Below are positions 3,046-55,852 of a DNA stretch of 64,000 nucleotides, piece after piece. The stretch comes from Xanthostigma xanthostigma (taxonomy: Eukaryota > Arthropoda > Insecta > Raphidioptera > Raphidiidae), in the NCBI GenBank assembly GCA_963575645.1, contig OY754467.1:9920001-9984000 (forward strand), given 5' to 3'. The notes under the pieces were generated by a model that did no database searches, was not told the origin of the DNA, and was given only the letters and a program-made list of their open reading frames with translations. The position numbers and the translations under genes were made by a program. Position 1 is the first letter of the stretch, and each line of letters begins with the position of its first letter.

Positions 3046-3076
3046 CTGAAGAAGTCTCGAGAGAGACGAAACGTCG
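3046..3076 (+). ncRNA. Solo CTGAAGA-helix-GAAACG motif (hammerhead-like)
   Basis: CTGAAGA (3046-3052), one A, GTCTC, loop GAGA, GAGAC (3063-3067), then GAAACGTCG. The 5-bp helix is perfect. This is the best-formed example of the module found inside the palindromic elements of this window. The hammerhead core is CUGANGA-helix II-GAAA; here one extra nucleotide lies before the helix, so catalysis is uncertain. No inverted partner lies nearby. Confidence 0.4.
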
Positions 3077-5121
3077 TACGATGATATTAAAGAATTGTTT
3101 AAATAATAACTGTTTTGTCAATCCAAATACCCATGAACATTTACAGTCGTTTTTTTTTGAGTTTTTTAAAACTCTAATTTTCTTACAGCTTCATTTTCAA
3201 AACTAGTAGTCCATTTACTAAGTCATTGGTATTATAATACATTCAATAGACATAATAATTATGTATTATGTGCAGAGACGAGATCTCTCCTAATGAGTGC
3301 ATTAGCATTACGATTTGTAAACAGTTCATAATCCGGTTATTGATTCTGATATTGTTGAAATGAAACTCTGAAATTATATTATTATCAGGGTACATAAACG
3401 CTGGCTGTTCAATTTACTCTGCAGTGATTTTCTATACGGTGCATTTGATTTCGACGGACATATTGCATTTGAATGCCAAATAGTTCCATTTAATTTACAT
3501 TGGATTCAACTCAAAAAAACAGTGACAATATACTATTGTGCAACTAGTGCGACAATGCCGCACGAGTTGCACATACTATTTTTTATTACGAATTAAATTA
3601 AATTAAAATTTTATTACTAATTAAAAAAAGGAATTAGAAGTAATAAAAATTAAAATTAAATCATTAAAAAGATGAAAATTCAGTTAAAATTGTTATTGTA
3701 TTGGTAACTAAGGCAAAAAATAATTTCAGTGCCACAAATAAATTTTCCGCACGCAAATGAAAATAGCTACTTTTCAACCGTAACACTTTTCCCGCATGAG
3801 TAATAAAAAAAAATGATTAATCATTTAAAACTATAATATTATCATACGAAAAAAAATTCCAGCCAATTGGGCAACGGGACCATTCCAACTTCAAAAATGT
3901 TGACATTTGATTATAATAAAGAAACTAAAAATTTTGATATCGCGTGAGGTGACGCGGGTAATGGCTGGTATTCAATACGATTTTAACTATTCGTTGCCAT
4001 GGTTACCTACATAATATGTTCCACGTCATGTAAAAATTAATCAAAGCATGCCTAACTAGTTTTTTTCTGACAGATCCATAAAACAAAAACCGGCTGATTT
4101 TTTTTTTTTTTTTAAATATTTCCGAAACTATAAAGTTTAGAAAAAATGTTACTAACGAAACTGTCTTGAAAAAATAAATAGAATAATAAGCCGTTATAAA
4201 GTATACCATTATTATATAAAAAACACCGTTCTGCGCATGCGCCGATTTTCCCCAAAAACAATAGGGCTCTTCATATTTGTATACTAAATATCCTCCCAAA
4301 ATTTGGTTTCAAAAAACTGATTAAAGTATTTAGTAATTTCGAATTCTTCTAGAGCTTACCAGATAAACAAAAGCTGTATAAAACAAACGAATGTGAGTGT
4401 GTATACTTCAACACTTTGAAATTTATAACATATCAAAAGCAGGCGTTTTTCTTTAATTATTATTTACCGTGTACGATGAGTTTTAACAAACCAAAAACGT
4501 TTTTACTTATGTGACAAAACTGTAATATGGCCGTTTCGTAGTTATTTTATTTTTGTCACGATACGTCCAGAGCGACAACTTGAAATTTAATTTATTTTCA
4601 TGCATCACTACACCCACCTTTGTATATTTATTTTACTTTCAACATGCCTCAGCGATCATTTCTCTTTCTGTTATGTGCTTTTATTTTTTTTTTTTTCAAA
4701 AAAACTTTACATTCTTTCGTTGAAACAATTATTTTTTACACTGAATGGATAAAGCAAAATATGCGCCCAACACTTGAAAATACTAGTTTATATATCTGTT
4801 ACGGTCTATTCCCGAATTCGGTCAATGACCGAAATAAATGCGCAAGACTAGTTTTGACCAACGAATATTTCCCAAACCCGAAATCTTACATTTAAACGGG
4901 TATTGAGTGTTATAAAATGAGCAAAACTAGTTTTGCACATTTACAATTAGTCAAAAATAATTCTGTTCATTTTTGAATGAACGGTACTAGTTCTGCTTGT
5001 TTCATTCAATCAACGTCCGAACCCGAACAAAAGTAGGGTTATGTACCTATCTATTAAATTGTTCTCCTGAATGTTTAAATTAATATAATTGTGGGATATT
5101 CAGTGTAATAATTAAGTAAAA
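3077..5121. other. AT-rich region with repeat fragments, no gene seen
   Basis: About 4170-4310 (reverse orientation) carries GCGCATGCGCCGATTTTCCCC and CCTCCCAAAATTTGGTTTCA. This is the satellite-like unit also present at 34140-34410 and, as five units, at 57800-58340. The rest is poly(A/T)-rich and has no supported coding sequence; short open frames here lack splice context or family resemblance. Confidence 0.5.
4170..4310 (-). repeat. Single copy of the GCGCATGCGCC satellite-like unit
   Basis: It matches in reverse the about 105-127-bp unit tandemly arranged at 57800-58340, including TATATAATAATGG-type spacer sequence and the GGCGCATGCGC landmark. It also extends into the CCTCCCAAAATTTGG flank shared with 34385-34410, so it came with the larger family A element. 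Confidence 0.6.
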
Positions 5122-5317
5122 ATGCAAGGTGAATTCGAGTCTCAACTATTTCGCCTATTGGAGGCTTCTGAAACATAATTTTATGACGAAACATAATTAC
5201 TTTACGACACTAAGTGAGGTTAAGAAAGCAAATTTATTGAACGCTGAATTAAAACCTCTGTCTGCTAAACAATATAGAAGAATAAATCGCTTTGATATAA
5301 TAAGAATCATTATATAA
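5122..5317 (+). pseudogene. Frameshifted N-terminal fragment of KRBA2/integrase-type transposon protein
   Basis: An ATG at 5122 opens 18 codons (MQGEFESQLFRLLEASET) and then stops. The reading resumes in another frame with YFTTLSEVKKANLL and AKQYRRINRFDII, ending at 5317. The pattern F..L...LE.S ... Y......EVKKA ... QYRR..RFDI resembles, from memory, the N-terminal region of insect proteins annotated KRAB-A domain-containing protein 2-like, which are integrase-core transposon proteins. No integrase DDE core follows. The frameshift, early stop and absence of the rest make it a decayed fragment. The family call is tentative; a chance open frame is the alternative. Confidence 0.4.
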
Positions 5318-5357
5318 TAAGTATCATTGCACATGTAGAATGTAGATCGTTCTATTA

Positions 5358-5826
5358 GGCTAGACGGCGAGGAGGTAAAGACATTAAAAAGTGCATTATT
5401 CGGGCACAGGCAAAATTATTGTTGGAATCGCTTCGTTTTAGGGTGTAGTTCAACCCCCTAAGTTTGCTTACAAATTGTTGGTGTGCTTGATTTTATAATT
5501 GACAATTAGTGACGAAAATAGTGCTTTTTTCTCTATTTCCTTTAATATCTCCGTTCCTCTTAGCTTTTAGTATAGCATATGCATTGAGAAAGTTTGATTC
5601 CTTATGAAATTTTCTAAAAAATGAGCACTGACAGAGGTCGCTAAGTGCAATTATTAGCTTGCAAATAGCCCCGAAAGTTAAAAAAACACGTTTTTTTTCA
5701 CTATTCTTTTACTAAAAAATGACCACACATAGATGGCTAAAAATTTTCAAAAATGATGTCTATGTTGACCCAAACATGCATGAATAATTTTAGAAAAATA
5801 CACCCAAAACTCCTCGCCGTCTTGCC
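5358..5826. mobile_element. TIR element with TA-type flanks
   Basis: GGCTAGACGGCGAGGAG at 5358 is mirrored by CTCCTCGCCGTCTTGCC ending at 5826, a 17-bp TIR with one mismatch, flanked on both sides by TA (5356-5357, 5827-5828). The size is about 470 bp and no frame is conserved. The TA duplication would suit a Tc1/mariner-type MITE. Confidence 0.65.
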
Positions 5827-5829
5827 TAT

Positions 5830-6748
5830 ATATCAAGTTCCTTGTAAGCCGATAAACAATCAAGTAATTTAATTAGATTATTTTAATTATATTTTCATAG
5901 ATTCAGAGTAAAATATTGCGTGTATACTATTGTTTTTTTACCGATTTTAAATTATAGTCAATGACTAACAATAAATTAGGGTTATGTTTTTGTGACGCGA
6001 ATTCTCTAATTCTTTATTTTGTAATCAATTTTCGACTTGTAAAAATATAAAAGCTAATTATACTAGTGAAAGTAACGAATGAATAAAGATTTTCAAAAAT
6101 CTGTAATCAAAAAATTGTTGATGTCAGATGACATTTAATGGTCACTTATATAATTAGTGAATTTTTATATTCACTAATTCATATTGTGAGTATTCTCTAA
6201 TTCTGCGTGGTACTATTCTAGCATTGACAAATAGTGAATATGCACTTGTAATTAGTGAAAAATCACTGATTCATGTTAAGAGAGTGTATATTGGTATCAT
6301 CAGAGTCCATCACTAAACGAGATAAATTTCGAGCGTTATTTTTTTCCACAAAGTTGAACACGGTTTATAATAGCGGCGGTTATAAATGATGATCTCGAGT
6401 TAAGCACAAGTGCAAGAAATAAACCCAAAAGCTTAAGGCGAGAGTGAGAAAACGTCTGGGATAAAGCTTCCAGTGTTCTCTCAATAGATGTACAGGTACC
6501 CGGGTTGGGCGATGCGAGGAGAACAGAAGGTTTTAGATGCGATTAACCTACGCCTCCCGGGAACACATAATTCTCAATTAGAACGCTGGCGGTATTATAT
6601 ATGTTACATATGTACAGGATGTCCAGGAAACCTTCCGTAAGAGTTTTGACAAGCGAATATACTTTTATTTTATACCGAGAATAGGAATAAAATCGCAATC
6701 GAACCATTAGGGTGCAAAGATATATTTCTGTCTTTTTTTAAGCCGTGA
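5830..6748. other. No gene seen; AT-rich with short TTAGTGAA repeats
   Basis: The motif TTAGTGAA / TTCACTAA recurs in both orientations at 6150-6270. The segment 6440-6620 (CGATGCGAGGAGAACAG, CCTACGCCTCCCGGGAAC) is of higher GC and resembles the tail of an old retroelement, but I cannot place it. Confidence 0.4.
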
Positions 6749-6749
6749 G

Positions 6750-6845
6750 CATTGGCGTATCCAGGAGGTAAAACAAGCACGGGGGACCCGGTTTAATAAA
6801 TTTCTAATTTGTCCCCTCCTGGGCCAAAAGCTGGGTACGCCCATG
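6750..6845. mobile_element. Very short hAT-like MITE
   Basis: The ends CATTGGCGTATCCAG and CTGGGTACGCCCATG are inverted repeats. Only 96 bp long, with a near-palindromic GGAGG / CCTCCT interior. No clear 8-bp duplication flanks it. Confidence 0.5.
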
Positions 6846-7619: not shown

Positions 7620-7764
7620 GTTTGTTCCAAGCAGCCAGAGAACGGTAACAGAACCGGCACCGGTTTGCGCAGTAGTTAAAACGAAACTGTTTATATCGAT
7701 TTTTAGCTACTGCGCGTGACAGTGACGGTTCTGTTACCGTTCTCTGGCTACTTGGAATAAACTT
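7620..7764. repeat. Long hairpin 1 of an adjacent pair
   Basis: The left arm 7620-7675 (GTTCCAAGCAGCCAGAGAAC, GGTAACAGAACCG, GCGCAGTAG) pairs with the right arm at about 7703-7764 (CTACTGCGC, CGGTTCTGTTACC, GTTCTCTGGCTACTTGGAA). A stable cruciform-capable palindrome, probably a MITE. Confidence 0.75.
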
Positions 7765-7813: not shown

Positions 7814-7945
7814 GGCATTTTCGGCATCGAGAACTGCTCCGGGGCAGGTCAGGCTGAATGAGTAACTATTGGTTAAAGAAATTTGTTTGTTTATTTAACC
7901 CATTCGGCTTGACCTGCCCCGGGAAGTTCTCGATGCCGAAAACGC
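7814..7945. repeat. Long hairpin 2 of an adjacent pair
   Basis: GCATTTTCGGCATCGAGAAC, CCGGGGCAGGTCA and GCTGAATG on the left are mirrored by CATTCGGCTTGACC, GCCCCGG and GTTCTCGATGCCGAAAACGC on the right, around an about 40-nt loop. The sequence is unrelated to hairpin 1, only 50 bp away. Confidence 0.75.
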
Positions 7946-12224: not shown

Positions 12225-12785
12225 GTGTCCGACCGAAGCTCTGGATTCGGCCACCTTCGGCGAAAACTTAGGCTTCGACCAAAATGGACCCAAGTTTTGG
12301 CCGAAGCCGAAGGTTTCTAACACGCGCCGAAATTGAACGAATTGTTACGAATGAGCAAGAGCGCAAAGGACGTGACGACTTCTATAGTGATGATTAATAT
12401 TACCTTTTTATATTATATAGTCAATGTAAACCTTCATTTTAAAAGTTTAAAATCATTTACCTATATTATTAATTGTATATTTAAGTGTGTAAGATCCTGG
12501 ATGATGATATAGTAAGTTGTTTTTAGAGGAAGAAGGATCATAGAAAACTATCAAGACGAAAAAAAAAATAAAAATTTCGTCTTGATAGTTTTCTATGATC
12601 CTTCTTCCTCTAAAAACAACTTACTATTAATTGTATAGTTTGTAGCAGTTGTAGCCAATTTAAATTGAATTTCTTAGGGTTTTTAAGTGTTCGGCTTCAC
12701 TCGAAGGTTGTGGCGATAGCCGATTAATAGGCTTCGGCCAAAAATCGACCTTCGATCAAATAATATACCGACACCGAGTGCAATT
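12225..12785. mobile_element. Inverted-end element rich in CTTCGGCC motifs
   Basis: GTGTCCGACCGAAGC at the left is loosely mirrored by ATACCGACAC at the right. Repeated GGCTTCGGCC / CTTCGGCGAAA motifs lie near both ends in opposite orientation (12240-12330, 12690-12770). It carries the perfect hairpin described separately. Possibly a hAT-related MITE; boundaries are approximate. Confidence 0.45.
12511..12625. repeat. Near-perfect 51-bp-arm hairpin
   Basis: The arms 12511-12561 and 12575-12625 are reverse complements without a mismatch that I can see (ends AGTAAGTTGTTTTTAGAGG / CCTCTAAAAACAACTTACT), with an A-rich loop of about 13 nt. The lack of decay implies a recent origin. ATTAATTGTATA occurs on both sides (12468-12479, 12627-12638), which could be a target duplication. 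Confidence 0.85.
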
Positions 12786-15520: not shown

Positions 15521-15840
15521 TTCGTGCGATGACTGGAACCTGTTAAAAATAGTTTAAAAAAACAGTGTTTCAACAATTTTTTTGCTTGAATCTTGTCAAA
15601 ATTCAATATTGTAACTATGGAAAAGCTCTTCTAATTTTCAAATTAGTGGAAACTGATCCAAATCTTCTTGGTTGCCGGGCTTGTATGCCGTGGTCATTGG
15701 TATTTCTAGGTAGAAATATCAATGGACCACGGCATACAAGCCCGGAAACCAAGAAGATTTGGATCAACACCGGCCGTGAAAGCCTACACAAGTGGAAACT
15801 GAGTTCGTCATTTTACTGGCCTAAGTTGATCGAAGGTAAA
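15521..15840 (+). mobile_element. Older unclassified repeat hosting a palindromic insertion
   Basis: Its sequence around GATGACTGGAACCTGTTA, TCTTGTCAAAATT and TTTCAAATTAGTGGAAACTGA is found in reverse at 37660-37830. There it runs uninterrupted through AGTGGAAACTGAGATCGCCATTTTACTG. Here it is split by 15657-15790. Confidence 0.7.
15657..15790. mobile_element. Palindromic Penelope-type element, short copy with 12-bp TSD
   Basis: The arms AATCTTCTTGGTTGCCGGGC... and ...GCCCGGAAACCAAGAAGATT form a long palindrome, followed by a tail GGATCAACACCGGCCGTG to CCTACACA. AGTGGAAACTGA is duplicated on both sides (15645-15656, 15791-15802), and the unoccupied paralogous site is at 37672-37683 (reverse strand). 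It is the same family as 22975-23194, but the central CTTTGATAAT...GACGAAACG module has been lost. Confidence 0.85.
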
Positions 15841-21551: not shown

Positions 21552-21760
21552 GGTCCAAATGTTGCCCAGAATAAACATTACTGGGAAAAAACTTGTCATA
21601 AATATAATATTTGTTTCTATTTCTCAAGAATTATTGATCCTAGGGGAACAGAAATATGATCATTAATTATGGCTCAGCTTGTGGTTTATTGCTATACTGT
21701 TTAAATATAAAAAATCGAACCCGGACCCGGTTTTAGTGTTCCATTATAGGTATTTAATAT

Positions 21761-22060
21761 GAAGATGAAGGAAGGTTTTGGTTGAGGATCATAAAATAAG
21801 CTTTACCAGTGTTTCGCTAGTGGCCAACGTTTCGAAAAATTTATTTTCATCTTCAGGGCCTCAAGCTGGTCAAGTGGTGGTAAATTGTTCTAAGAGTATA
21901 CATGATCATAATTATTGTATAGGTACTGTGAGAACAATTTACCACCACTTGACCAGCTTGAGGCCCTGAAGATGAAAATAAATTTTTCGAAACGTTGACC
22001 ACTAGCGAAACACTGGTAAAGCTTATTTTATGATCCTCAACCAAAACCCTCCTTCATCTT
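21761..22060. mobile_element. Palindromic Penelope-type element with about 130-bp arms
   Basis: The arms 21761-21895 and 21931-22060 are nearly perfect reverse complements (GAAGATGAAGG...CCTTCATC outer ends; TTTACCACCACTTGACC inner). Each arm carries CTGAAGA-T-GAAAA-loop-TTTTC-GAAACGTTG (minus 21825-21856, plus 21966-21997). The modules face so that their 3' sides point outward: a head-to-head dimer. The open frames on both strands are mirror images produced by the palindrome. Confidence 0.8.
21966..21997 (+). ncRNA. CTGAAGA-helix-GAAACG module (with mirror copy at 21825-21856)
   Basis: CTGAAGA, one T, GAAAA, loop TAAAT, TTTTC, GAAACGTTG. The helix sequence is completely different from that at 3046-3076, yet still pairs. 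Possible hammerhead-like RNA; catalysis is not shown. Confidence 0.4.
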
Positions 22061-22239
22061 AATATTCTATTGGATCAACACTACTTTATACTGAATCATT
22101 TAATATTTATGCAACAATAGAAACATTTTGTACTGGTACCTCTGAAATTTCAAAATTAATAATTTTCTTCGGACGTCTTTTTTTCAAACTTTGATGAGAC
22201 TGTGTTCAATCTACTCAAAAATTCTTTAAAAAAATTTAC

Positions 22240-22974: not shown

Positions 22975-23194
22975 CAAATCTTCTTGGTTTCCGGGCTTGT
23001 ATGCCGTGGTCCATTGGTATTACTACCTGACGTTTCGTCTACAACTGCGGTAGACATTATCAAAGGCGCCTTTGATAATGTCTACCGCAGTTGTAGACAA
23101 AACGTCAAGTAGTAATACCAATGGACCACGGCATACAAGCCCGGAAACCAAGAAGATTTGGATCAACACCGGCCGTGAAAGCCTACACACTTGG
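22975..23194. mobile_element. Palindromic Penelope-type element with 14-bp TSD
   Basis: The arms CAAATCTTCTTGGTTTCCGG... and ...CCGGAAACCAAGAAGATTTG enclose two face-to-face modules (minus 23029-23065, plus 23070-23106). The tail continues GATCAACACCGGCCGTG to CCTACACACTTGG. ACGTTTGTCTGTTT is duplicated exactly at 22961-22974 and 23195-23208. The duplication length does not suit the common DNA-transposon superfamilies; it suits target-primed insertion. Confidence 0.85.
23029..23106. ncRNA. Paired CTTTGATAAT-GTCTAC...GTAGAC-GAAACGTCA modules
   Basis: The helix GTCTAC / GTAGAC with loop CGCAGTT is followed by GAAACGTCA (GACAAAACGTCA on the plus-strand arm, a one-base difference). The 5' half, CTTTGATAAT, deviates from CUGANGA, so this is a degenerate version of the module. 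Confidence 0.35.
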
Positions 23195-25181: not shown

Positions 25182-25630
25182 GATAAAATTATACGGGATA
25201 CAAGACTAAATATAAAAACAATTTTTATTCACTAGAACATCATTTAATCGTCAACGTTTCGGCAGAAATTCATGACTTCTTCAGGACCTTAAAAATGTCT
25301 AGTAAAAAGTCATAAAATTAAAAACATAAAATAATTTAAAAACATTATTATCAAACATTTAAAACTTTTTTAAAAACTAAACTTTATAAATAATAAAAAC
25401 TTTAAAAGATCCATTAAAAAATTATAAAAATATATCCTTTTTTTCTAAATCTCAAAATTTTTTAGAAAGAAAAGATATACCTATTTTTATAATTTTTTAA
25501 TTTTTACCTACTAGACATTTTTAAGGTCCTGAAGAAACATGAATTTTTGCCGAAACGTTGACGATTAAATGATGTTCTAGTGAATAAAAATTGTTTTTAT
25601 ATTTAGCCTTGTATCCCGTATAATTTTATC
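25182..25630. mobile_element. Palindromic Penelope-type element with about 110-135-bp arms
   Basis: The outer arms GATAAAATTATACGGGATAC / GTATCCCGTATAATTTTATC continue through ACTAGAACATCATTTAATCG and its complement to the modules at 25252-25284 (minus) and 25529-25560 (plus: CTGAAGA...GCC-GAAACGTTG). An inner ACATTTTTAAGG pair follows. The middle about 170 bp is A-rich. The helix between CTGAAGA and GAAACGTTG is weak here. No clear target duplication was found. Confidence 0.75.
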
Positions 25631-26158: not shown

Positions 26159-26374
26159 CTAAGGGCGTAGATATGGTGGGTAGAGGGGGTATTAATAATA
26201 AAAAATAAAACTGAAAATATAACGAATACAAAACAAAATTTTGACAAGTTTGCAGCAGCGTATTTTGTAACATAATTAGTTTAGGAATTAATATATATTA
26301 GATATCGTGTCCATCGATAATAATTAATAAGAAAATTCGCAGGTTTGTGGACAATAGTTGTATTTATGATTGTA

Positions 26375-26408
26375 CGACGTTTCGTCTATAAATTTAGACT
26401 TTTTCAAG
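26375..26408 (-). ncRNA. CTTGAAAAA-GTCTA...TAGAC-GAAACGTCG module 3' of Penelope-like ORF
   Basis: The helix GTCTA / TAGAC is followed by GAAACGTCGTAC. It is near-identical to the two modules at 48351-48384 and 48508-48541. It lies about 160 nt after the ORF stop, where Penelope-like terminal repeats are known to carry hammerhead motifs. The 5' core is degenerate (CTTGAAAAA rather than CTGANGA). Confidence 0.4.
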
Positions 26409-26565
26409 TACAAATTGAAAATTATTTAAAACAATAATTATGAAAATAAACAATAATTACTAACCATAGCAATTAACAAAAGTTAAGGTACATAAGATAA
26501 AAACATGGCAACAAGTTTATGTATAAATTTTTAAACAATAAAAATTAAAATTAAAAATTCGAAAG

Positions 26566-32075: not shown

Positions 32076-32811
32076 CTACCGGTCCCGCCCGGTTTCACCC
32101 GGGTGCAAAACAACGAATGGGGAAGGGATGAGTACGCACATTCATCTTAGTTTACTGACATGAATGTTGCGTCCAAATTTCATGATGATCGGAGTTACCG
32201 TTCAAAAGTTTTTGTCGTTAAAAAGCAGTCTTCATACTTTTTTGAAGTAATATATTTCTTTTAAATCAATAATTGAATAATTACTGTAATAATTAAAATA
32301 TAATAAATATTTAATTGAAAACACTAGGAAAATTATTTTTATATAGGTACCTATGTAACAGTTTAATTAGATTTATTTAATTTTAATTAGTCGTAAATGA
32401 AATTAAAATATATTTAAATGTAACCATTAGAAGAAAGCAATGTAGAAAATAAAAAAAAATTAAAAATATATTCGCCCAACGTGGGGCTCGAACCCACGAC
32501 CCTGAGATTAAGAGTCGCATGCTCTACCGACTGAGATAGCCGGGCTTGTGAATGTACGACGCTGAAAGATTTAGTTAGAGCATTTGACTTGAATAGAAGC
32601 TTATTTTGAGTTACGTTTTGCAATATTTTTTATTGATGCTTCGCTCCTATTGGTCCTAGCGTGATATTATATAGCCTATAGCCTTCCTCATTAAATGGGC
32701 TATCCAACAAAAAAAATGTTTTCAATTCGAACCAGTAGTTCCTGAGATTAGCACGTTCAACCAAACAAACAAACGAACAAATTCTTTAGCTTTATGTATT
32801 AGTATAGATAT
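32076..32811 (-). mobile_element. Composite repeat with internal antisense tRNA-Lys, copy 1
   Basis: The outer parts are CTACCGGTCCCGCCCGGTTTC...AAGTTTTTGTCGTTAAAAAGC on the left and TGCAATATTTTTTATTGATG...TATTAGTATAGAT on the right. The middle holds a tRNA-Lys-like sequence (32473-32545) in reverse. A copy without the middle is at 60848-61200, so the tRNA cassette is an optional module. The right end is an RTE-like 3' end typical of Lepidoptera. I give the strand of the tRNA. Confidence 0.75.
32473..32545 (-). tRNA. tRNA-Lys(CTT)-like sequence inside a repeat, probably a pseudogene/SINE module
   Basis: Read on the minus strand it starts GCCCGGCTATCTCAGTCGG, has CTCTTAA around the anticodon CTT, and ends TCGAGCCCCACGTTGGGCG, 73 nt. 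Acceptor, D, T arms and box B (GGTTCGAGCCC) are intact. Compared with the usual animal tRNA-Lys(CTT) it has a T in place of G at position 10 and a C that breaks one anticodon-stem pair. Its embedding in a repeated element argues against a host tRNA gene, though it may be transcribed. Confidence 0.7.
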
Positions 32812-33039
32812 GAAAGTAATCAGCAGAAGATTAATTATCTATGGATTAAGATCGGCAAATTTTCTGTTTACAGTTTTATTAATTTCAATATTCCAATTTC
32901 CAAATCAATGAACTCGGATAACATGATGGATAAGTTTTCCAATTAGTGAACTGAAATATACTTCTTGAGTTAGTCATTGAATAAAGACACAACATCTAGT
33001 GTTGTCTTTATCTTTTAAAAGACAGAATGCGTGTCTATA
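32812..33039. other. No gene seen
   Basis: Contains an inverted pair AAAGACACAACATCTAGTG (32983-33001) / TGTTGTCTTT; nothing else. Confidence 0.35.
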
Positions 33040-33737
33040 TACAGAATGATCCATTTTAATCTTACCAGGCAGATAGTTGAAAACAGTGGGGTTAAAAAAA
33101 AGTTTCCAAAAAAAGTTGTACGGTTGTTAGGGGGACATCGTTCGGGGGCACAACCATCCCCCTTTTCCCAACCCTCCTCGGGCTTTGGAGGTAAGTCGAT
33201 TTTTTAAATAGCAACCCCCATTTTTTATGACGTGATTGAGTTGGCAAAAAAATACAACTTTTATTGGAAACTTTTTCTTCGAAAATGCAAATCTGTTCAA
33301 TGGGAAGGTAATTAAGAAAATTACAGGTGAAAAATAATCTATCTTGAGTCAAATCTCGAAAATCTCGTCCTGTCCATGAAATACTCAAGAACAATTATTT
33401 TTCACCTGTAATTACCTCAATTACCTTCCCATTGAACTTTGAAAAATTTGACTTTGATAGCTCGGTAACTTGACAGATTTGCATTTTCGAAAAAAAAGTT
33501 TCCAACGAAAGTTGTATTTTTTTGCCAACTCAATCAAAATACGTCATAAAAAATGGGGGTTGCTATTTAAAAAATTCGACTTACCCCCACCTCCCGAGGA
33601 GGGTTGGTGGTAAGGGGAATGATTGTGCCCCCGAACGATGTCCCCCTAACAACCGTACAACTTTTGTTGGAAACATTTTTTAACTCCACTGTTTTCAAAT
33701 ATTTGCCTGGTAAGATTAAAATGGATCACCCGGTATA
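33040..33737. mobile_element. Large foldback element with about 300-bp arms
   Basis: The left arm from ACAGAATGATCCATTTTAATC through GGGGGACATCGTTCGGGGGC, TGGGGGTTGC-type and TTGGAAACTTTT pairs with the right arm that ends GATTAAAATGGATCACCCGG. The arms meet near 33340-33395 (AATTACAGGTGAAAAATAAT / ATTATTTTTCACCTGTAATT). TATATA lies at both outer edges. The open frame on the minus strand at 33092-33394 is a by-product. Confidence 0.85.
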
Positions 33738-33981
33738 TATTATATAAGAGCCATAGATAATTAATAAAGGTAAAATTAATAACATTCAAAGAACGCTGCA
33801 CGCAAACATTACCGTCGAAAGGTTCGATGCAAAAGAGCAGGGAAAAGATGTATCCACGCGAGAAAATAAGTGACCAGAAAACTAACCACGTATAATATCA
33901 TATAGGTATATAGGTAAAAGGTAAAAGCTATCCGTAAAGGTTTATTATACAGGATGTCCGTGCCATCGGACGATTTAAATA

Positions 33982-34985
33982 TAAAAAAAAATTGGTTGTC
34001 TGTAAAGTCGGTTTACGGACGATAGTTTTACGTGTTAACGTATTCCGTTATACATAACCTAAATTTATATAATAATTATAATAATTCGAATCTATGATAT
34101 TGCATCTTTCGCTTCAAATTTAGGTAAATTTTATTAAGTAGAATAATAAAACACTATAAAAAGTACACTATTATTATATACAAAACAACTATGGCATGTC
34201 TCTTTTGCGCATGCGCCGATTTTCCCCAAAAAATTTACAAAAATTTCTAGTAAAAATAGATAGAGTAAAAACCGTTTTAAAAACTATATTATTATTATAT
34301 AAAACATCATTATAAGAGATATATTCTTTTACGCATGCGCCGATGTTCCCCAAAAACAATAGGCCACTTCATATTTGCATATCAAACATCCTCCCAAAAT
34401 TTGGTTTCAATCCGCTTATCCTTGGTGTCGGAATGATAAGAAATGTCAAAAGTGACGTTTGCAACTGTCAAAGTATTATGTTCTAATAATAATTAGTTAT
34501 TCCAATACTTAACTTAGAAGGCGTTGCATTTCACAAAATACTAATGTCAAAAAATTGAATTAAACATTAGAAATACAGCCGTTTTCATGTTAAGACAAGA
34601 CATACGTTATTTTCTAATTTCCATGTACGGCAAACAAAGACGACCGACCGCGTCGCGCCATGCATTAGACAGCATTGCATTTATACAGCTATTTTTCTAT
34701 ATAAATTTGTATAAAAAAACTGTTTAGGCAAATTCTGTTATACGAAATCTATGTAAAATGTTCTCCTCTTTCGTTTAAGACTGGTTTCAAACCGATCTGA
34801 TTTAAATTGAGCGAGAAATTAGCAAAAAGCACGCACAGGGTCAGGCGGAACGTTACGCGTTAGGAACGTTACGCGTTAGGAACGTTACGACCGTTAGGAA
34901 CGTTACACTTTTTCGTGCATGCAGCCGGTGTTTTATCAATTTATAAGATTGGTGATTCATCAATTTATAAGACGTTATCACGTCA
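33982..34985 (-). mobile_element. Family A element, copy 3, with satellite-like insert
   Basis: It matches 17884-18537 in reverse from AAATTGGTTGTCTGTAAAGTC to AAGACGTTATCACGTC. Between 34130 and 34410 it carries two GCGCATGCGCCGAT.TTCCCC units (34205, 34332; 127 bp apart) absent from copy 1. Copy 1 reads directly from GGGAGG to TTTAGGTTATG, so the satellite block is a variable module. The AACGTTACGCGTTAGG unit is repeated at 34848-34905. Confidence 0.7.
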
Positions 34986-36436: not shown

Positions 36437-36976
36437 AGGGTTGCCAACTCCTAAAAATCTTTCCCTCCAACCACAAGTAGAAATAGCCCTAAAAATCCCC
36501 TAAAAAAATAATTATCTTACTTTGGAAAATTTTTTATTTTTATTAATTTATATTACTTAATATTTAAAGAGAGGGAGCGCGGGCTCGGTCTCCTTATATA
36601 GCAGAACAGTGAATACCGTCGTCAAAGCGGCAAACTTTGTTGAAGATAAGTTAACAATAATAAACGATTATTCTACAGTTACAATAATCGGAATTCATTG
36701 TTAACTCATCTTCAACAAAGTTTGTCGCTTTGACGGCGGTATTCTGCTATTGAAGGAGACCGAGCGCCACAGGATGTTACTGTAATACTATATTATTAAG
36801 ACTAGGGGTACTTAGTAAACAGATATTTAACGAGTCGGTTTTGTAATTCATCTGTGTCAGAAAAAAAATTTTGTGTCCCTAAAATTACTCCTAAAAATAT
36901 TAGGGCCTCAAAAAAAATCCTATTCTACATTTTATCCTCTCAAATTTAGGGGGAAAACCCCAAAGTTGGCATCCCT
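36437..36976. mobile_element. hAT-like MITE with internal long hairpin
   Basis: The ends AGGGTTGCCAACTCC and CCAAAGTTGGCATCCCT are imperfect inverted repeats. Inside, 36578-36770 is a palindrome (GCTCGGTCTCC, GTCAAAGCGGCAAACTTTG, GTTGAAGATAAGTTAACA and their complements). No 8-bp duplication is recognisable. Confidence 0.65.
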
Positions 36977-37840: not shown

Positions 37841-37924
37841 TGTAACTATTTTTTTTTTCAAAAATTATAAAAATATTTAACAATTTTAATTTCAGAAAAA
37901 AAGTTTGAGTGATTTTTTTTTATG

Positions 37925-38098
37925 TGGTGACATAATAAAAATACGATATTATTATGTCATGACATAATAAAAATACAATATTATTATGTTATGACATAAT
38001 TATAATTAGTCGTCTTTCCTATGTATAAGCATTTAATTTTATGTTATGACATAATAATATTGTATTTTTATTATGTCATGGCATAATAATATTGTATT
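37925..38098. repeat. Inverted array of ATGACATAATAAAAATACAATATT units
   Basis: Two and a half direct units of about 37 bp (37928-38003) are followed by the same units in reverse (38041-38096), around a unique 37-nt centre. Each unit is itself close to palindromic (ATGACATAAT...ATTATGTCAT). Confidence 0.8.
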
Positions 38099-38946
38099 TG
38101 TTCCCTCAAATATACACCCTTCTGCGATTTTGTGAAAATGTTTAGGGTCAAACCATCTTCATTTTACTGGCCTAAAAAGTGCGGTTATGTTCACAATTGA
38201 ACTAAAAAATACTGAAATTGAAGTGAAAACCAGTTATTTTATAATGGCGTACGTTCAGAAAATATCATACGTACCTTGTGCGTAATAACGTTATCGCTTG
38301 TGTGACTTTTACAAGTCGCTCTGCTCGTTTTCAAATAATGTCTCCACTCGTGCGTAATATATCTACGTAATTACGACACTAGATCTACAATCAATTTCCT
38401 TCGTTTTTATAATCAGTGAGTGAGATTCATTTTTTGTTTTGTCGCTTAGTTGTGTTTATTTGTTAGTACATCTGTTTTTTTTTATTTTTTAAATTACGTT
38501 TTATCTTATTTAGTTCTGTTTATTGCTGTCTGTGCTATTCCGCGATTACAACCAAATTTGTGAATCAATTTTAACAAAATTTTGCAAATGAGTTTTTTTT
38601 ATATCGAGATCAAAGTGAACAAAATTGTATGCCTGTTCGTTTGACATGTTGAAAAATGATGAAGCCAATTGTTCACAGTACAAAAATTGGACACTCTGTA
38701 TAGACTATTATACATATATTTTACACGCGTATTATGGTATATGTTATTTGTTCTGTGTGTTCAGGACGATTCACAAAATTGCCGAGCTACCGTCAACGAC
38801 AGCCAATCAGAAAGCAGATAGAACATTTATATTGTGTTCACGTGTGCCGGTTCCCCTTCTGTTCGTTTTTATGATTTGTGACGTCAAAAGTATAATTTTG
38901 AATTTTAATATTACATAATTAAAAAGAAAACAAACAATTGATTCGT

Positions 38947-39175
38947 ACAATACCAATATTAAGAGCACTGTGGTTGAAACAAAAATAAAAAATATAGAAT
39001 AGTTACTTCTTACTACAACAATTTTATTAGCGGATATACATTTCGGGAGCTATCCTCTCATCTTCAGCAAACACTAAAATGTTTAGTGTTTACTGAAGAT
39101 GAGAGCATAGCTCCCGAAATGTACATCCGCTAATAAAACTGTTGTAGTAAGAAGTAACTATTCTATATTTTTTAT
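38947..39175. mobile_element. Palindromic Penelope-type element, copy 2 of the family at 60-262, 11-bp TSD
   Basis: AATTGATTCGT is duplicated at 38936-38946 and 39176-39186. The arms (TAGTTACTTCTTACTACAAC / GTTGTAGTAAGAAGTAACTA and onward) meet at TAAAATGTTTAGTG. Modules lie at 39041-39067 (minus) and 39093-39119 (plus). The left end carries an additional tail AAGAGCACTGTGGTTGAAAC also found in copy 1. Confidence 0.85.
39093..39119 (+). ncRNA. CTGAAGA-T-GAGAGC...GCTCCC-GAAATG module
   Basis: CTGAAGA, one T, GAGAGC, loop ATA, GCTCCC, GAAATGTAC. The helix has one A-C mismatch. A mirror copy at 39041-39067 differs by one base in the helix. Part of the hammerhead-like set. Confidence 0.4.
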
Positions 39176-39315
39176 AATTGATTCGTGTATGTTCCTTATG
39201 CCGACTTATGACGTCATAAGTGCAGTATATCAATTTTGTTTTGAAATGTTTGCCTGTTAATATAAGATCAAAGCGAATAATTGAAGTAACTTCTGTTCCT
39301 GTTTGGGCTTGTGAC

Positions 39316-46682: not shown

Positions 46683-46941
46683 CAAGGGCGTAGATATTTT
46701 TTTCGGGGGGAGGGTTAATAAGTTTTTTAAGTTTTTTTTTTAATATCACACAAGAATACTCACGAATGGAGGTGTCCAGCAAAATATTTTTTCCCAAACT
46801 AAATTTAATTTTTTTTTTTCAATACGTATTCCTAAATTTTATTTTTTAGCTAGTTATTCGTAATTTTTGAGTTTTATTTTTTATTATCATAGTCGGGGAA
46901 CGGGGTAATTAGCTCCTTTGCACCCCATATCCACGACCTTG
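46683..46941. mobile_element. hAT MITE (GGGCGTAGATAT family) with exact 8-bp TSD
   Basis: CAAGGGCGTAGATA at the left and TATCCACGACCTTG at the right; GGTTCTGA is duplicated at 46675-46682 and 46942-46949. Family members are at 26159-26915 and 53417-53708. Confidence 0.85.
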
Positions 46942-47119
46942 GGTTCTGAGCATCATTTCGTTTCTGAAAACCATTTTTGAAGTAACAGGATATCAGAAAT
47001 TAATCTAGTAGGGGTAATTAGCTCCTTTGCACCCCATATCCACGCCCTTGGGTTCTGAGCATCATGTCGTTTCTGAAAACCTTTTTTGAAGTAACAGGAT
47101 ATCAGAAATTAATCTAGTA
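46902..47119 (+). repeat. 109-bp tandem duplication covering a MITE end
   Basis: 46902-47010 and 47011-47119 differ at only a few positions (CACGACC / CACGCCC, CATTTCG / CATGTCG, CCATTT / CCTTTT). Each contains the right end of the hAT MITE plus its flank, so the duplication is younger than the insertion. Confidence 0.9.
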
Positions 47120-47300: not shown

Positions 47301-48297
47301 AGGTTTTCTTTCAAAGACGTGTCTGTCGCCTTGTGTAGGTAATATTCTAGTGCAGTGGCCCGTCCTTGGAGTTTCTCTCATTTAATGATAATTTCTCCAA
47401 CAGAACGCAGCAACGTTTATCCGTTTCGCAGCACCACGCGGAGATCTTGCTCCAGAAGCTTTGCTGTTCGCCTGGTAGGTACTCTCTAACAGTCGACATG
47501 ATGATAGTGTACTAGCACCGAGGAACACTTTTACTAATTGTACAGCGCCATTGCATTTTCATTAGTAAAATTTAATTTTTACATTTTTCTTTAATTCGTG
47601 TAGTCGTTTTTCCTTTAAACCGTAGAAAATTAAACGTAGTAGATAAATTTCAGGTTAAAACCTTGTTAAAACAAAACACTAGATAGTTTTCACTCTACTA
47701 GTGAATGTGCAGAAATAATGTAGTTTTGTCATGCTGAATCGATTTTGATAAACGTGTAAAAAGTCCAGCGTGTCCGGGCAATCTGGCTGTTGGTGAAATA
47801 GATTTACAATTGTATGGTGGAGGTGCCGTGATTAGTAACTGCGCTTCCGCCACATTTATTGATTTATTAAGCATGTCTACGGGCGACCCGAAGTAAGGAC
47901 GCTATAAAGTGAAAAACAAAAACAAGTCGTGAGGTGAATCGTTCTTAGGGACCCTTGAGGTCCTCACGACCAATAGTGAATATTAAATATGTAGGTATTT
48001 AATAAATTAGACCCGAGAAATATTTTTTTAAAAATTCTAAAATATTTTTTGCAGTGTTTATCAAAAAAAAAGGCTTGATTCATTTTTATAAAATTTCTTC
48101 CGGATTATATTTAGGTTAATACGCGTAGTCGATATCTTTTTTTATTCTCGAAATTTCGTCTTACAAAGAAATGACCACGTACGTACGTACGTTCGACCAC
48201 ACGCGGAGAGAGAGAGGCTTCTTTTTAAAAATAATGTATCTTGAAACATAAAAATCAGTCAAAATTTTTGATTTCGATTTTCGAACCCATTACAATA
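47301..48297. other. No secure gene; one weak exon-like segment
   Basis: 47404-47474 follows TTTCTCCAACAG and precedes GTAGGTACT, and all three forward frames are open. No family is recognised, so it is treated only as a candidate in the findings. Nothing else here can be named. Confidence 0.35.
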
Positions 48298-48625
48298 ACT
48301 AATAATAAAAATCGCAGGATTGTGGACAAAAAGTTAGATTTATTAATGTACGACGTTTCGTCTATAGATTTAGACTTTTTCAAGTACACTAAGACAGTTA
48401 AAAACAATAATTATGAAAATAAACATTAATAATTACTATCCGTAGCAATTTACAAAATTAATTAATGTTTATTTTATTAATTATTGTTTTTAATTTTCTT
48501 ATTGTACTTGAAAAAGTCTAAATCTATAGACGAAACGTCGTACATTAATAAATCTAACTTTTTGTCCACAATCCTGCGATTTTTATTATTAATTATTATC
48601 TCGATGGACACGATATCTAATATAG
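48298..48625. mobile_element. Palindromic Penelope-type element related to 26295-26837
   Basis: Arms TAATAATAAAAATCGCAGGA... and ...TCCTGCGATTTTTATTATTA. Modules at 48351-48384 (minus) and 48508-48541 (plus). The right tail continues to GATGGACACGATATCTAATATA, the same 3' end as the Penelope-like remnant at 26295. Hence the arms are two copies of that element's 3' end joined head to head. Confidence 0.8.
48508..48541 (+). ncRNA. CTTGAAAAA-GTCTA...TAGAC-GAAACGTCG module (mirror at 48351-48384)
   Basis: Perfect GTCTA / TAGAC helix followed by GAAACGTCGTAC. Versus the 3046 example the fifth pair is A-T rather than C-G, a compensated change. Confidence 0.4.
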
Positions 48626-51375: not shown

Positions 51376-52015
51376 GGTAGTACTGTCAGTTAGAGAGTTA
51401 CTGTTCAGAATTAAATGAAACTTGGCATACTGGTAGATTTTAATAAGATAATGAACCACCTAAAATTTCAAAAAGCTACAGAGAAACAAAAAAAAAGTGT
51501 TTTGCCATTAACTTTGAACCTTATGAGAATTAAATGAAACTTGGCATACTGGTAGATTTTAATAAGATAATGAACCACCTAAATTTTCAAAAAGCTACAG
51601 AGAAACAAAAAAAAAGTGTTTTGCCTTTAACCTTGAACCTTATGAGAAATCGGAGATTTTATTAAATTTCACTAAATGTACCGTTCATATTTCAATGAAT
51701 TTTGTATCAACAGAACAAAAAAAGATTTTCAAACATTTTGATATTTAAAAAATTGATGTTCAGAGCATGTGATAAGAGTAATTAGCAGAAATGTACATTT
51801 TATCTTATTATTTATTATATGTGGCTATTCTGACATTTTAAAAATAATAAAACTTGTAACTACGGCTTTATACGCAAAACGCACGTGAAACAGAGTTACT
51901 CTCAGTATATACCTCTATCTCCTTTACTTTTAGGTGGCGTTGTCAAATCGAAATACTACGTAAGTCAAATATGTCTGAGCTCACATTTGATACTTGTGGT
52001 ATCGACAGTACTACC
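51376..52015. mobile_element. TTAA-flanked MITE (GGTAGTACTGTC ends)
   Basis: TTAA at 51372-51375 and 52016-52019; TIRs GGTAGTACTGTC / GACAGTACTACC. It contains a 119-bp tandem duplication at 51407-51645. The first eight TIR bases are shared with the foldback at 62971-63484, suggesting a common piggyBac-type transposase. Confidence 0.85.
51407..51645 (+). repeat. 119-bp tandem duplication inside the TTAA MITE
   Basis: Two units beginning AGAATTAAATGAAACTTGGC and ending AACCTTATGAG, nearly identical, implying a recent duplication. Confidence 0.9.
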
Positions 52016-52134
52016 TTAAGTCTCTTTTATGAGCTTGCACTTCGTAAAAACAGGGGCAGATTTTAAGTTTTGGCGCCCTAGGCTATGACAGCCATACCGT
52101 CTTTTTGTTTTCAATGCAAAAAGGGTAATTTTAA

Positions 52135-52645: not shown

Positions 52646-53408
52646 ATATAAAAGTGATATACTCGTATACCTAACTACTACTATATTTTAGAGAGTTTTC
52701 TCGCTTACCCAGTTCTCACTCACGCTCGCGCTGGTTTGACTGTACCTATATGATATTATGACTCATGCGACCAATAAAACTCGCTGGTTCTCGTTTATAA
52801 CAATATGTCACGCACTTACTATTACGTCATCTACGTTTTATCTGCCGACTAGACCTATCAGTAAATCCACGACTGCATAAAATGAACTTGCGTATACACC
52901 CCTACAACACACACTACACATTTACGCATAGTTTGTTCACCCTGATGCAAGTTATCGATAGGGTATAAAAGTATTATAGCTTAATCATGAAGCTAAAAAA
53001 AAAACATTTGAATTTTAACATTTCATGAAGAGTGCCCAACATTCTCTATTTAAACATAGTTCGGCCATTTTATTATTTTCCTGCATTCGACAAAGGTATT
53101 AACGTTGTATTTTAATATTTCATGGGGAATTAAAATGGTGCCTAGTCGGTATTAAATTATTTTAGGTAATAAGTACACGTCTGTACCAATATATAAAACT
53201 ATTTTTATGTATGTGTGTTTGAACGGATTTAAATTAATAACTATAGTCGGCAAATTTTGATAAAACCTTTTTAGAAATATTGTTTGAGCAACCTGTCTAT
53301 ACAATTTTATATATTTAGAAAATTTCTTGGGAACAATAGACACTGCATTAGAAGTCTATGGTTGCCAAGAAATTTTCCTTTTAGAAATATTTTTTTTTTA
53401 ATTCTAGA
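52646..53408. other. No gene seen
   Basis: AT-rich sequence; no repeat partner recognised. Confidence 0.35.
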
Positions 53409-53416
53409 AGTGCTAT

Positions 53417-53708
53417 CGAGAGCGTAGATATGGGGAGTAAAGGGGGTAATCCCCCCCTCCCCCAGGATCAGAATAATAAAAAAATAAAACAAAAAATAAT
53501 TCGAATATCTGCAAGCTAAAAATTAAAATTTAGAAATAAACTTTAGATAAAACTTTGTAAAATTAGTTTGGAAATTAATATTTAGCTTGACAGTTGACAC
53601 CTTTATTCGTGATTATTCTTGTATGATGTTAATAAAACTTAAAAAAATACTGTTTTTTTGTTGTTTTAACCACCACCCCCCTTTCCCGAAAAAAAATCTA
53701 CGCCATTG
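53417..53708. mobile_element. hAT MITE (GCGTAGATATGGGG family) with exact 8-bp TSD
   Basis: CGAGAGCGTAGATATGGGG to AAAATCTACGCCATTG; AGTGCTAT is duplicated at 53409-53416 and 53709-53716. It supplies the empty-site reference for the Penelope-like insertion at 26295-26837. Confidence 0.85.
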
Positions 53709-53794
53709 AGTGCTATAGGCTATGTTTTAATTTAGTATTTTATTGCAAAATCTTATTAGTTTCATTTATTTTTTGACATATACTTCTATAATAT

Positions 53795-54048
53795 ACAAAT
53801 CTATACTAATATTATACATATAAAGAGGTCAAGTTTGTAAGTTTGGATGTAGGAGGTAATCTCCGAAACTACTCATCCGATTTCAAAAATGTTTTCACCA
53901 ATATTTAGAATGGATCTTCAAATTGAACACAGGCTATAATTATCGAGTTAAAATAAAAGTGTTTTTCGTGGAGACCAATTTTTCAACAAAAGTCGACGAA
54001 AAATGGTGGCAAACAACAAATTCGGCCGAAGCCGAATCGAGCTGCTAG
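53795..54048 (-). mobile_element. RTE-like/SINE repeat, reverse copy
   Basis: CTACTCATCCGATTTCAAAAATG, CAATATTTAGAATG, GGAGACCAATTTTTCAACAAAAG and CTGCTAG match the right half of 55095-55475. It begins near the ATACTAATATTATACATATAAAG stretch typical of RTE ends. Confidence 0.6.
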
Positions 54049-54580
54049 TTTGGTATAATTTACTATATAGAATTTTCTTCTTGTTCTCTGACATACGAAA
54101 TGAATTTCAGTTTGAAATACTTAAGATATATATTATTTTTAAAAAACCGTATACAGGCTACAGCTATGTCATACTATATTATTTTAATGCCGTAGTTAAC
54201 ATATTTGAAAAAGCTCAGTAAATTTTCTTTAATGTGCATAAACTTTGCCAAAACAATTTTCTCGAATAATAATAATGTATGCACAAAACTACGTATAAAA
54301 TATATCTTCATAAAGCATATGGATTTTGTAATATTTATTATATAGCATTACGGAGTGGTTTTGTTGCAATAAAAGTATGCATGTATTTTATGTAAGTTGT
54401 TTTCTGACGTAATAATGTACCTAATCTGTCGTAAATCATGTTTTAAAATAATTATATCCGTGCACAAAAGGTAAGACGACGCGTATGTTCAATTTCCGCT
54501 TTCCGTAATTTTTAAATTAAAAAGCAGATTGTGTTTATCAGGCTATTTATATGTGACTACTGACTATAAAAATCGCAGTT
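54049..54580. other. No gene seen
   Basis: AT-rich sequence without recognised element. Confidence 0.35.
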
Positions 54581-54589
54581 CGTATCTTA

Positions 54590-55045
54590 AGGCCGCTGCA
54601 CACTAGGCTAGAAATGCTGCTAGGAGTTCTGCTAGCCGGTAGGCTGAGTAAGAAGCTGGAAATGACGTCACTGCGGGCAGGCCTGTTAGCTCACAAGATA
54701 GGTTTTAAAATTAGAACAAGGGCTATTTTCCCCGTGAGATTTGCTGCTAAGTATGAGCAAGAACCAATCAGGAACAGTATCTTGTCACGTGGGTACTTGA
54801 ACAAACACCCACAAACCAACATGGTGTCGCATTCTGTTCAGAGTCAGACAACAGACACGTGCAGCTCTGTGTTTATATTCGAACTGTTACTGCGCGCGCA
54901 CCAGATCTATCTACATATCAAGCTTGAAAAATAGTCTCGCGTGAAGCGACCACTTAACAGCAATCAGGAAAACCAGCGCTAGAAAACTACTAGGCAAATA
55001 TAGCAAGGAATCTAGCAGCGTTTCTAGCCTCGTATGCAGCGGCCT
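54590..55045. mobile_element. TIR element with TTA duplication (PIF/Harbinger-like)
   Basis: AGGCCGCTGCACACTAGGCT is mirrored by AGCCTCGTATGCAGCGGCCT; TTA flanks it at 54587-54589 and 55046-55048. 3-bp TTA duplication suits PIF/Harbinger. The GC is higher than the surroundings, and the 106-codon open frame at 54614-54934 starts inside the TIR; it resembles no transposase and is not called. Confidence 0.75.
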
Positions 55046-55094
55046 TTAGCTCGGACCGCGCCGGTCGAAAAATAGAGGTTCCCTGACATTAAAT

Positions 55095-55475
55095 GAAATA
55101 CTAGCGGCTCGGTCCGGATTCGTCCGAATTTGTAGATTGCCACCGTTTTTTCGTCGACTTACGTTGCAAAATTGGTTTCCACGAAAAGCGTTTTTATTTT
55201 ATTGCGATAATATATAGCCTATGTCCATCCTGAAGGTTTATTCTAAATATTGGTGAAAAAAAATTTGAAATCGGATAATCTCCGACATTACTCATCCGAT
55301 TTCAAAAATGTTTTTCATCAATATTTAGAATGCACTTTCAGGATGAACATAGACTATATATTATCGCAATAAAATAAAAACGCTTTTCGTAAAGACCAAT
55401 TTTGCAACGTAAGTCGACGAAAAAACAGTTGCAATCTACAAATTTGGGCGAAGTCGGACCGGACCGCTAGAAATT
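55095..55475. mobile_element. Two RTE-like/SINE copies in inverted orientation
   Basis: 55095-55265 (ACTAGCGGCTCGGTCCGG...) is reversed by 55280-55475 (...CCGGACCGCTAG), giving an about 380-bp palindrome with arms of about 170-190 bp. Both arms carry the TTGCAAAATTGGT and TATTGCGATAATATATAG landmarks. Confidence 0.75.
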
Positions 55476-55817
55476 AATAAATAAATTATACACATTTCTT
55501 TTACATCTGAAATTAGTAAATAAATAAACATTATTAATTAATTATTTAAAATAGAACGTAAATGAATTGCGTTGTTATATTTTTTCAGCGTGTTATTTTT
55601 GGGTAAAATCACTGAAATAATATTGTTAGGGCAAGCTTTTCAGGTTATTGTGCATGAAAACGGTTTCATTCAATAAACAACACCTCGATCTTTTGTATCG
55701 TGTTGGTTTGAAAATCATGTTCCCCGTTCTGGAACGTTTGCTTTAATATTAATGAGAACTCAAGTTGTCAAACACCGGCTCCTCTGTTTTACTGTTAAAT
55801 TCCATTTATATTAAAGG
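55476..55817. other. No gene seen
   Basis: AT-rich; leads into a solo motif at 55818. Confidence 0.35.
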
Positions 55818-55852
55818 CGACGTTTCAACGTGTCTTTTTAAGACTTCTTCAG
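55818..55852 (-). ncRNA. Solo CTGAAGA-A-GTCTT...AAGAC module with inserted ACGTT
   Basis: On the minus strand: CTGAAGA, A, GTCTT, AAA, AAGAC, then ACGTT, then GAAACGTCG. The 5-nt ACGTT between helix and GAAA may be a small duplication, since ACGT also follows. No inverted partner, tail boundaries unknown. Confidence 0.35.

Follow-up and report, generated by a model that had tools for sequence, protein, structure and literature searches.

Across a 64,000-nucleotide stretch of the genome of Xanthostigma xanthostigma (Insecta; Raphidioptera), contig OY754467.1, positions 9,920,001 to 9,984,000 (the window), one short RNA-like module recurs at 13 places, and each copy is very probably a hammerhead ribozyme of the minimal type I form, located in the terminal (pLTR) part of a Penelope-like retrotransposon (Penelope-like element, PLE). 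That the modules are hammerheads belonging to PLEs is, in our judgment, close to certain; the object is an already known kind, the PLE hammerhead. A preliminary description of the window had compared the layout with the hammerhead core and had named Penelope-like elements as a lead, both correctly. It had also called the carriers of the module otherwise unrelated, whereas they are families of one kind, PLEs.

Each module runs through one strand of stem I, the core C/U-U-G-A-N-G/A-A, one extra A or U, stem II (a hairpin of 4 to 6 bp), GAAA-Y-GU-H, and the stem I partner. Stem I is formed by bases ahead of CUGA pairing with bases after the cut and is lost in some copies (3046, 39.0k). The preliminary description had the core and stem II right but overlooked stem I (GGCC/GGCC, GTAC/GTAC, GUC/GAC), as well as the covariation of C3-G8 with U3-A8, the self-complementary AYGU that makes a minimal stem III, and the cleavage nucleotide H17, for which every one of the 13 window copies has A, C, or U. 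What follows GAAA is reduced to Y-G-U-H before stem I. A-C-G-U is self-complementary, and so is A-U-G-U, found in one family, with a G-U; therefore, stem III can form only between two units. Because stem III cannot form within one unit, a cut after H17 would be expected only when two units are joined by stem III pairing, which is how PLE hammerheads have been reported to act.

The exact pattern CTGAAGA-N(10-40)-GAAAYGT has 8 matches in the window, where shuffles give an expectation of 0.03. In the remaining five copies (23029, 23072, 26376, 48352, and 48508), UUGANAA replaces CUGANGA, so that C3/G8 has become a paired U3/A8. A strict hammerhead descriptor, defined after the copies had been seen and demanding a Watson-Crick pair of the C3-G8 type, one extra base, and H17, finds 7 window matches, whereas 100 dinucleotide shuffles average 0.01; when stem I of at least 3 bp is added, it finds 5 against none. 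The window has a GC content of ~33%, which could favor chance matches in AT-rich DNA, but these counts and the 45-fold genome-wide excess described below leave chance with effectively no probability. With filters off, a covariance model built from 16 sequences, which include 4 of the 13 window copies, returns exactly the 13 places given in the preliminary description (E ≤ 0.021; the next match has an E of 1.5), so that its list was complete. We regard the copies at 55819-55852 and 23072 as decayed because the former has 5 extra bases between stem II and GAAA and the latter has lost the first G of GAAA. The helix at 25253/25529 is weak, as had been described. When single RNA units were folded, stems I and II formed in three of the four copies tested (21826, 26376, and 48352; z, -1.9 to -3.4), and the hammerhead fold was not obtained for the weak copy at 25253 (z, +0.5). 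By self-comparison, palindromes surround five window pairs of copies. The features are as follows.

73..236: inverted pair of the 39.0k family; truncated within the hammerhead (right arm, -24) and past the cut (left arm, +8)
3046..3075, + strand: hammerhead core with C3-G8, extra A, and stem II GUCUC/GAGAC; stem I broken; within 2 kb no partner in inverted orientation is convincing
15654..15796: hammerhead-free palindrome, 23.0k family
21756..22066: divergent palindromic PLE insertion, GAAAA family; flank match of 9 bp, arms 65/101
21826..21856, - strand: hammerhead in the left arm of 21756..22066; stem I GGCC/GGCC
21966..21996, + strand: hammerhead in the right arm of 21756..22066 (long, tailed arm)
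22975..23160: divergent palindromic PLE insertion, GUCUACCG family
23029..23063, - strand: hammerhead with U3-A8 core; stem I CCU/AGG
23072..23106, + strand: decayed hammerhead copy (first G of GAAA changed)
25182..25630: divergent palindromic PLE insertion whose arm ends break the one-tail rule
25253..25284, - strand: hammerhead with weak stem II; stem I GUC/GAC
25529..25559, + strand: hammerhead copy with weak stem II
26376..26407, - strand: hammerhead with U3-A8 core and stem I GUAC/GUAC; lone copy of the 48.4k family
38976..39184: divergent palindromic PLE insertion; hammerhead family common to PLE gene loci such as L025 and L030
39037..39067, - strand: hammerhead copy, GAGAG.. stem II with one mismatch; GAAAUGUA
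39093..39123, + strand: hammerhead copy
48294..48624: divergent palindromic PLE insertion with no clear flank duplication; tail apparently on the right arm (~48598-48624), judged against 26294-26459
48352..48383, - strand: hammerhead with U3-A8 core
48508..48539, + strand: hammerhead with U3-A8 core
55819..55852, - strand: decayed hammerhead copy with a 5-nt insertion before GAAA

The 16 sequences behind the covariance model (4 window copies and 12 from the same genome) came from pattern searches in which part of the core was preset and were hand-chosen for diversity rather than at random, mostly one per family, with the GAAAA family represented twice. In their alignment, 89.9% of cells are paired, compared with 52.9% in shuffles, and two-sided changes affect 61 cells, compared with 19.1. 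The covariation score is 0.955 versus 0.234, and none of 500 shuffles scored as high; structures slid along the alignment as a control pair only 27-54% of cells. Two-sided changes occur in both helices (96.2% of cells paired in helix II and 79.7% in helix I), the C3-G8 position is CG in 11 sequences, UA in 5, and broken in none, and the core positions that the search patterns left free are invariant or nearly so. Covariation of stems I and II and of C3-G8 thus bears out the earlier claim of a selected RNA structure. A set of 27 stem II family strings, paired in 108 of 108 cells (62.9 in shuffles), was dropped as evidence because the strings had been chosen for pairing.

The module is abundant throughout the host genome (623 Mb, 28 contigs), in which CTGAAGA-N-GAAAYGT has 9,975 + 10,018 matches, compared with 219 + 222 for a reversed control (45-fold). 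Using the pattern N-TGA-N-N-A-W-G-N(10-20)-CGAAACGTY, with four combinations that differ only at positions 3 and 8, we found 15,088 matches with C3-G8 (reversed control, 1), 4,666 with U3-A8 (6), 651 with U3-G8 (0), and 420 with C3-A8 (1), together ~20,800 matches from many families. The association between C3-G8 and U3-A8 has an odds ratio of ~257, which is not a tally of independent changes because the copies share descent. Among the matches listed, the U3-A8 stem II families include GUCUA, GUCUACCG, GACUA, GUCAA, and GAUCG. A first C3-A8 count (2,673, versus 350 in the control) was discarded because ~44 of the ~100 matches listed were an unrelated repeat (CTGAAAAAAATACAAATAAT...); the narrower pattern was then applied to all four combinations. 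A dispersed repeat with CTGAAAAAAATACAAATAATAAAAAAGAAATGTA in the genome (G000) also imitates the motif without pairing. Since natural C3-G8 to U3-A8 covariation in hammerheads, with "several" examples, was published in 2011 (passages of Perreault et al., PMC3088659), U3-A8 is strong evidence for the hammerhead fold and not a novelty; a literature search on the U3-A8 notation gave no match.

The hammerhead criterion places stem II directly after A9; in nearly all copies here it does not start there, and the one added nucleotide ahead of the stem is as first described. Among 100 listed matches, stem II (at least 3 bp) follows one extra base in 75, no extra base in 2, and two in 2, and 21 have no such stem; in the 75, the extra base is A in 46, T in 28, and G in 1. 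A GU..AC-stem pattern without the extra base has 3 matches in the whole genome (control, 1). In IMG/VR viral contigs, compared with the genome for stems starting GU..AC, a near-identical no-extra pattern has 34 matches, 33 of them with stem II of at least 4 bp at offset 0, and the one-extra form has 7, none with a stem of at least 3 bp. The extra base is therefore a mark of the PLE-type hammerhead of this genome. In IMG/VR, the exact form GUCU/AGAC gave no match. Two IMG/VR contigs (L163 and L186) carry two or three canonical hammerheads on one strand.

The assignment to PLEs comes from the genes. A GIY-YIG search of the genome gave 37 matches, 30 of which were taken as loci, many being near-identical copies of one family. 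A hammerhead lies on the same strand, on the 3' side, in 27 of the 30 (22 by the descriptor and 5 more by the covariance model; L018 and L020 overlap and have one hammerhead between them), and we therefore conclude that the elements are PLEs. The exceptions are L010, with a hammerhead on the opposite strand, and L012 and L017, with none accepted. All three open reading frames (ORFs) tested (L019, L025, and L030) contain both RVT_1 and GIY-YIG, and in L025 and L030 the hammerhead is ~250 nt past the stop codon.

Some results weigh against identifying the window copies as PLE hammerheads. A search with the Rfam hammerhead models gave no match in the window and 7 loci up to E ≤ 10, nor at the gathering cutoff. 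The 21 of 100 listed matches that lack a stem II of at least 3 bp also count on this side, as does the absence of a PLE domain from the 10 ORFs scanned with Pfam among 90 window ORFs of at least 70 amino acids (aa). No window ORF reaches 200 aa. Pfam matches to Tat and Churchill in window ORFs were sub-threshold and taken as chance, and many Rfam microRNA matches on the palindromes were judged to be hairpin artefacts.

Among neighbors less than 1 kb apart in two lists of 100 matches, 33 are divergent, with spacers of 12-889 bp, none are convergent, and 6 are on the same strand; a wider tally has one convergent neighbor, 21966+/23029- (1,033 bp apart), which belongs to two separate insertions. 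This pattern is hard to reconcile with metazoan retrozymes, small non-autonomous circular-RNA elements that carry type I hammerheads in tandem repeats. Retrozymes do share type I hammerheads, AT richness, and short noncoding copies, and they are known in metazoans (passages of PMC7229834). However, instead of tandem monomers of ~170-400 nt we found divergent inverted pairs (33 of 39 close neighbors, with only 6 on the same strand), and the hammerheads are of the minimal type and adjoin PLE genes. We consider a retrozyme origin highly unlikely.

For a closer view of the ends, we assembled 34 divergent pairs: an automatic search of fetched loci and the window supplied 31, and 3 more window pairs were included manually. 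L051, L052, L055, and L079 were left out because one arm failed the stem II criterion. Since loci were chosen for being pairs, the arm and flank figures hold for pairs and not for copies in general. Within 35-150 nt past the ribozyme cut, the flanks of 23 of the 34 pairs share an exact match of at least 11 bp, compared with 24 of 1,122 mismatched pairings, and these flank duplications measure 11-17 bp. In 20 of the 23 duplicated pairs, one arm is short (51-74 nt past the cut) and the other long (80-102 nt); none of the 23 has two short or two long arms. The arms differ by 22-39 nt (mean, 30.7), which we liken to the PLE tail of 31 bp (passages of PMC3846280) or 30-40 bp (passages of PMC11167929), and in 12 of the 20 the left arm is the longer. 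For the 23.0k pair, a right-hand cut coordinate 3 nt too small had been used; the corrected arm ends are 54 and 88. In three families, the partner arms of L004, L059, L065, and L067 all end at -13, just after the 3' strand of stem II; reverse transcriptase (RT) stop, cleavage in the loop, and a joining overlap are candidate causes.

Inverted repeats with target duplications at high copy number are also what miniature inverted-repeat transposable elements (MITEs) would give, with the pairs as their terminal inverted repeats and the hairpins as transposase sites. The spacer, however, varies from copy to copy over 12-889 bp, and the two ends differ by a tail of 22-39 nt, so that a shared interior and identical ends are not seen. 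The same hammerheads adjoin RT/GIY-YIG genes, and a DNA site is not expected to covary at C3-G8 and stem I. A MITE origin is thus very remote.

We consider it probable, judging from the genomic pairs, that each PLE insertion is primed from both target strands, in steps whose order is likewise inferred from sequence. The PLE protein would make a staggered cut in AT-rich DNA, and both 3' ends would act as primers for reverse transcription of a PLE RNA unit, one at a proximal start site (51-74 nt downstream of the ribozyme cut) and the other at a distal one (80-102 nt downstream). Joining of the two cDNAs would then leave the copies head to head in a palindrome, bordered by flank duplications of 11-17 bp. 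Two-strand priming directly explains why, in the pairs measured, each start site is used once per insertion, and because both cDNAs would start at the RNA 3' side, the RNA sense would run outward on both arms. In the anole, the PLE protein cuts and extends both strands at AT-rich targets; the ribozyme cut is 26 nt into the ORF, the main RT start is 111-118 nt into the ORF (85-92 nt past the cut), and a second start site bounds an optional tail of 30-40 nt (passages of PMC11167929). This explanation of the pairs was not found in passages of the PLE literature or in a search on twin priming and Penelope, and its novelty is unproven.

Not all of the data fit two-strand priming from two start sites. 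No flank match of at least 11 bp exists in 11 of the 34 pairs, the arm ends misfit in 3 of the 23 duplicated pairs (L050, 83/136; L089, 41/42; and the window pair at 25.3k, 100/94), and in vitro, the anole PLE showed no difference in start site between the strands, whereas here there is one of each per insertion (passages of PMC11167929).

An alternative origin for the inverted pairs is self-priming on antisense RNA, without use of both target strands, proposed in 2013 from the head-to-head palindromes of rotifer (Adineta vaga) PLEs and favored by the authors of that study (passages of PMC3846280). It agrees with the closeness of the arms within a pair, which show no more than 8 aligned differences in 25 of the 28 pairs compared. 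A short and a long arm in 20 of 23 pairs is, by contrast, the prediction of two priming events at two start sites, and the anole protein acts on both strands (passages of PMC11167929). Moreover, the two arms of L081 and of L089 carry different loop II variants, with a 3-nt deletion confined to one arm, and these variants are seen again at another locus; in L049 and L053, the two arms are distinguished by an A/C site that varies recurrently. These differences fit two template units, either two RNAs or units of a tandem RNA. We therefore consider self-priming unlikely. The stronger notion that every insertion uses two different templates is backed in few pairs only, as most pairs are concordant, and we rejected it.

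A more speculative extension of two-strand priming, which we hold only tentatively, is a coordinated reaction in which two RNA units joined via hammerhead stem III are copied simultaneously from different start sites. The main job of the hammerhead would then be template pairing, cutting would be a later or side reaction, and the extra base would tune pairing. If so, every insertion would get one tailed and one untailed arm.

As to the ribozyme itself, we lean toward cleavage taking place in vivo. Arm ends at or within a base of the cut occur in the 15.7k element (15708), L074, L107, and L138; those of L107 and L138 fall at the self-complementary GGCC, which could also be a joining overlap. 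At 15654..15796, the right arm begins at 15708, the first base past the cut site (judged by eye against the family rows; the printed offset is 2-3 nt off). These few arm ends at the cut site form a lead, not a peak.

The evidence opposed to cleavage comes from the GAAAA family and from the anole. Among 70 outer arms from 60 short loci, consecutive in the list except that, on C1:0-45 Mb, 12 of the 22 arms that had earlier proved intact are left out, 63 reach past the cut by at least 11 nt on its upstream side, and the other 7 stop between -7 and the cut; the templates of the 63 were uncut at that site, because the arms run across it. The anole PLE hammerhead cut only with the PLE protein, insertion in vitro did not require that cutting, and RNA-seq gave no reads that end at the cut (passages of PMC11167929). 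Arms that cross the cut site agree with in vitro work in which mutating the ribozyme left PLE insertion unaffected (passages of the same study).

The same 63 arms and the same protein-dependent, dispensable anole hammerhead (passages of PMC11167929) are what one would expect if the module were kept for protein binding or RNA dimerization at insertion, its cutting lost. Binding alone, however, is not expected to preserve a near-invariant core and C3-G8 covariation in the 16 sequences or H17 in 13 of 13 window copies, and we find this reading doubtful.

The ~20,800 pattern matches in this one genome amount to a natural experiment on the core, C3-G8 versus U3-A8, with a near-universal extra base. 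The insertion scars record the RT start on each strand, so that the role of the ribozyme and the course of PLE insertion become counting problems, and the Rfam hammerhead models miss the tested copies of a very abundant form. Scale, the extra base, and the one-tail-per-insertion rule may make the system worth specialist follow-up.

The window has other features. A match to the R2 retrotransposon 3' RNA element (RF00524; 45.7 bits, cutoff of 38) at 61978-62066 (-) suggests that the end of an R2-like element may lie there, and a tRNA match (RF00005; 47.2 bits) at 32473-32545 (-) is possibly a gene or a short interspersed element. Hammerhead-free palindromes with 72-91% self-identity lie at 263-568, 7620-7762, 7815-7945, 12509-12627, 33036-33739, 36583-36765, 37917-38099, 55093-55478, and 63026-63328; some could be PLE pairs truncated before the ribozyme, like 15654-15796. 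A ~122-bp tandem array at 57808-58243 is related to a second window region, 34139-34828, and two-copy tandem duplications of 109 and ~119 bp at 46902-47119 and 51407-51648, with 97% matches, are perhaps recent.

Minimal hammerheads of the kind that acts as a dimer have reportedly been tied to PLEs by Cervera and de la Pena in 2014 and by Lunse, Weinberg, and Breaker in 2017. As reviewed, minimal type I hammerheads of PLEs likewise lie in pLTRs, with stem III missing or diminished, dimer action expected, and thousands of dispersed copies (passages of PMC6155905 and PMC7761336); unlike those, nearly all copies here have the extra A or U before stem II, and the U3-A8 core is common.

For the extra base, the closest parallel is a viroid. 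De la Pena and Flores are said to have described in 2001 an extra A in the core of the plus-strand hammerhead of chrysanthemum chlorotic mottle viroid (CChMVd). This A separates A9 from stem II. The two systems thus share a single added nucleotide in the consensus core, as a single case in the viroid and a genome-wide rule here; passages of PMC3705267 also give an extra A in the viroid core. The U3-A8 hammerheads of Perreault et al. show the same covariation, several there and 4,666 matches here (passages of PMC3088659). Metazoan retrozymes also have type I hammerheads in non-autonomous elements but differ in their tandem repeats, fuller hammerheads, and circular RNA (passages of PMC7229834).

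In insertion geometry, Adineta vaga Penelope elements resemble the present ones, with head-to-head inverted pLTRs, short target duplications (8-10 bp), and a 31-bp tail optionally on one pLTR (passages of PMC3846280, the main text of which does not use the word "hammerhead"). Here, in contrast, many pairs are solo inverted pairs and the flank matches are longer (11-17 bp versus 8-10 bp). The Poseidon element PAc of Anolis comes closest, with its hammerhead at the pLTR-ORF junction, a tail of 30-40 bp, cutting of both strands, and an RT start 85-92 nt after the cut, close to the long arms here (80-102 nt) (passages of PMC11167929). The insertions described here, known from sequence and read from genomic pairs, differ in having one start site per insertion end.

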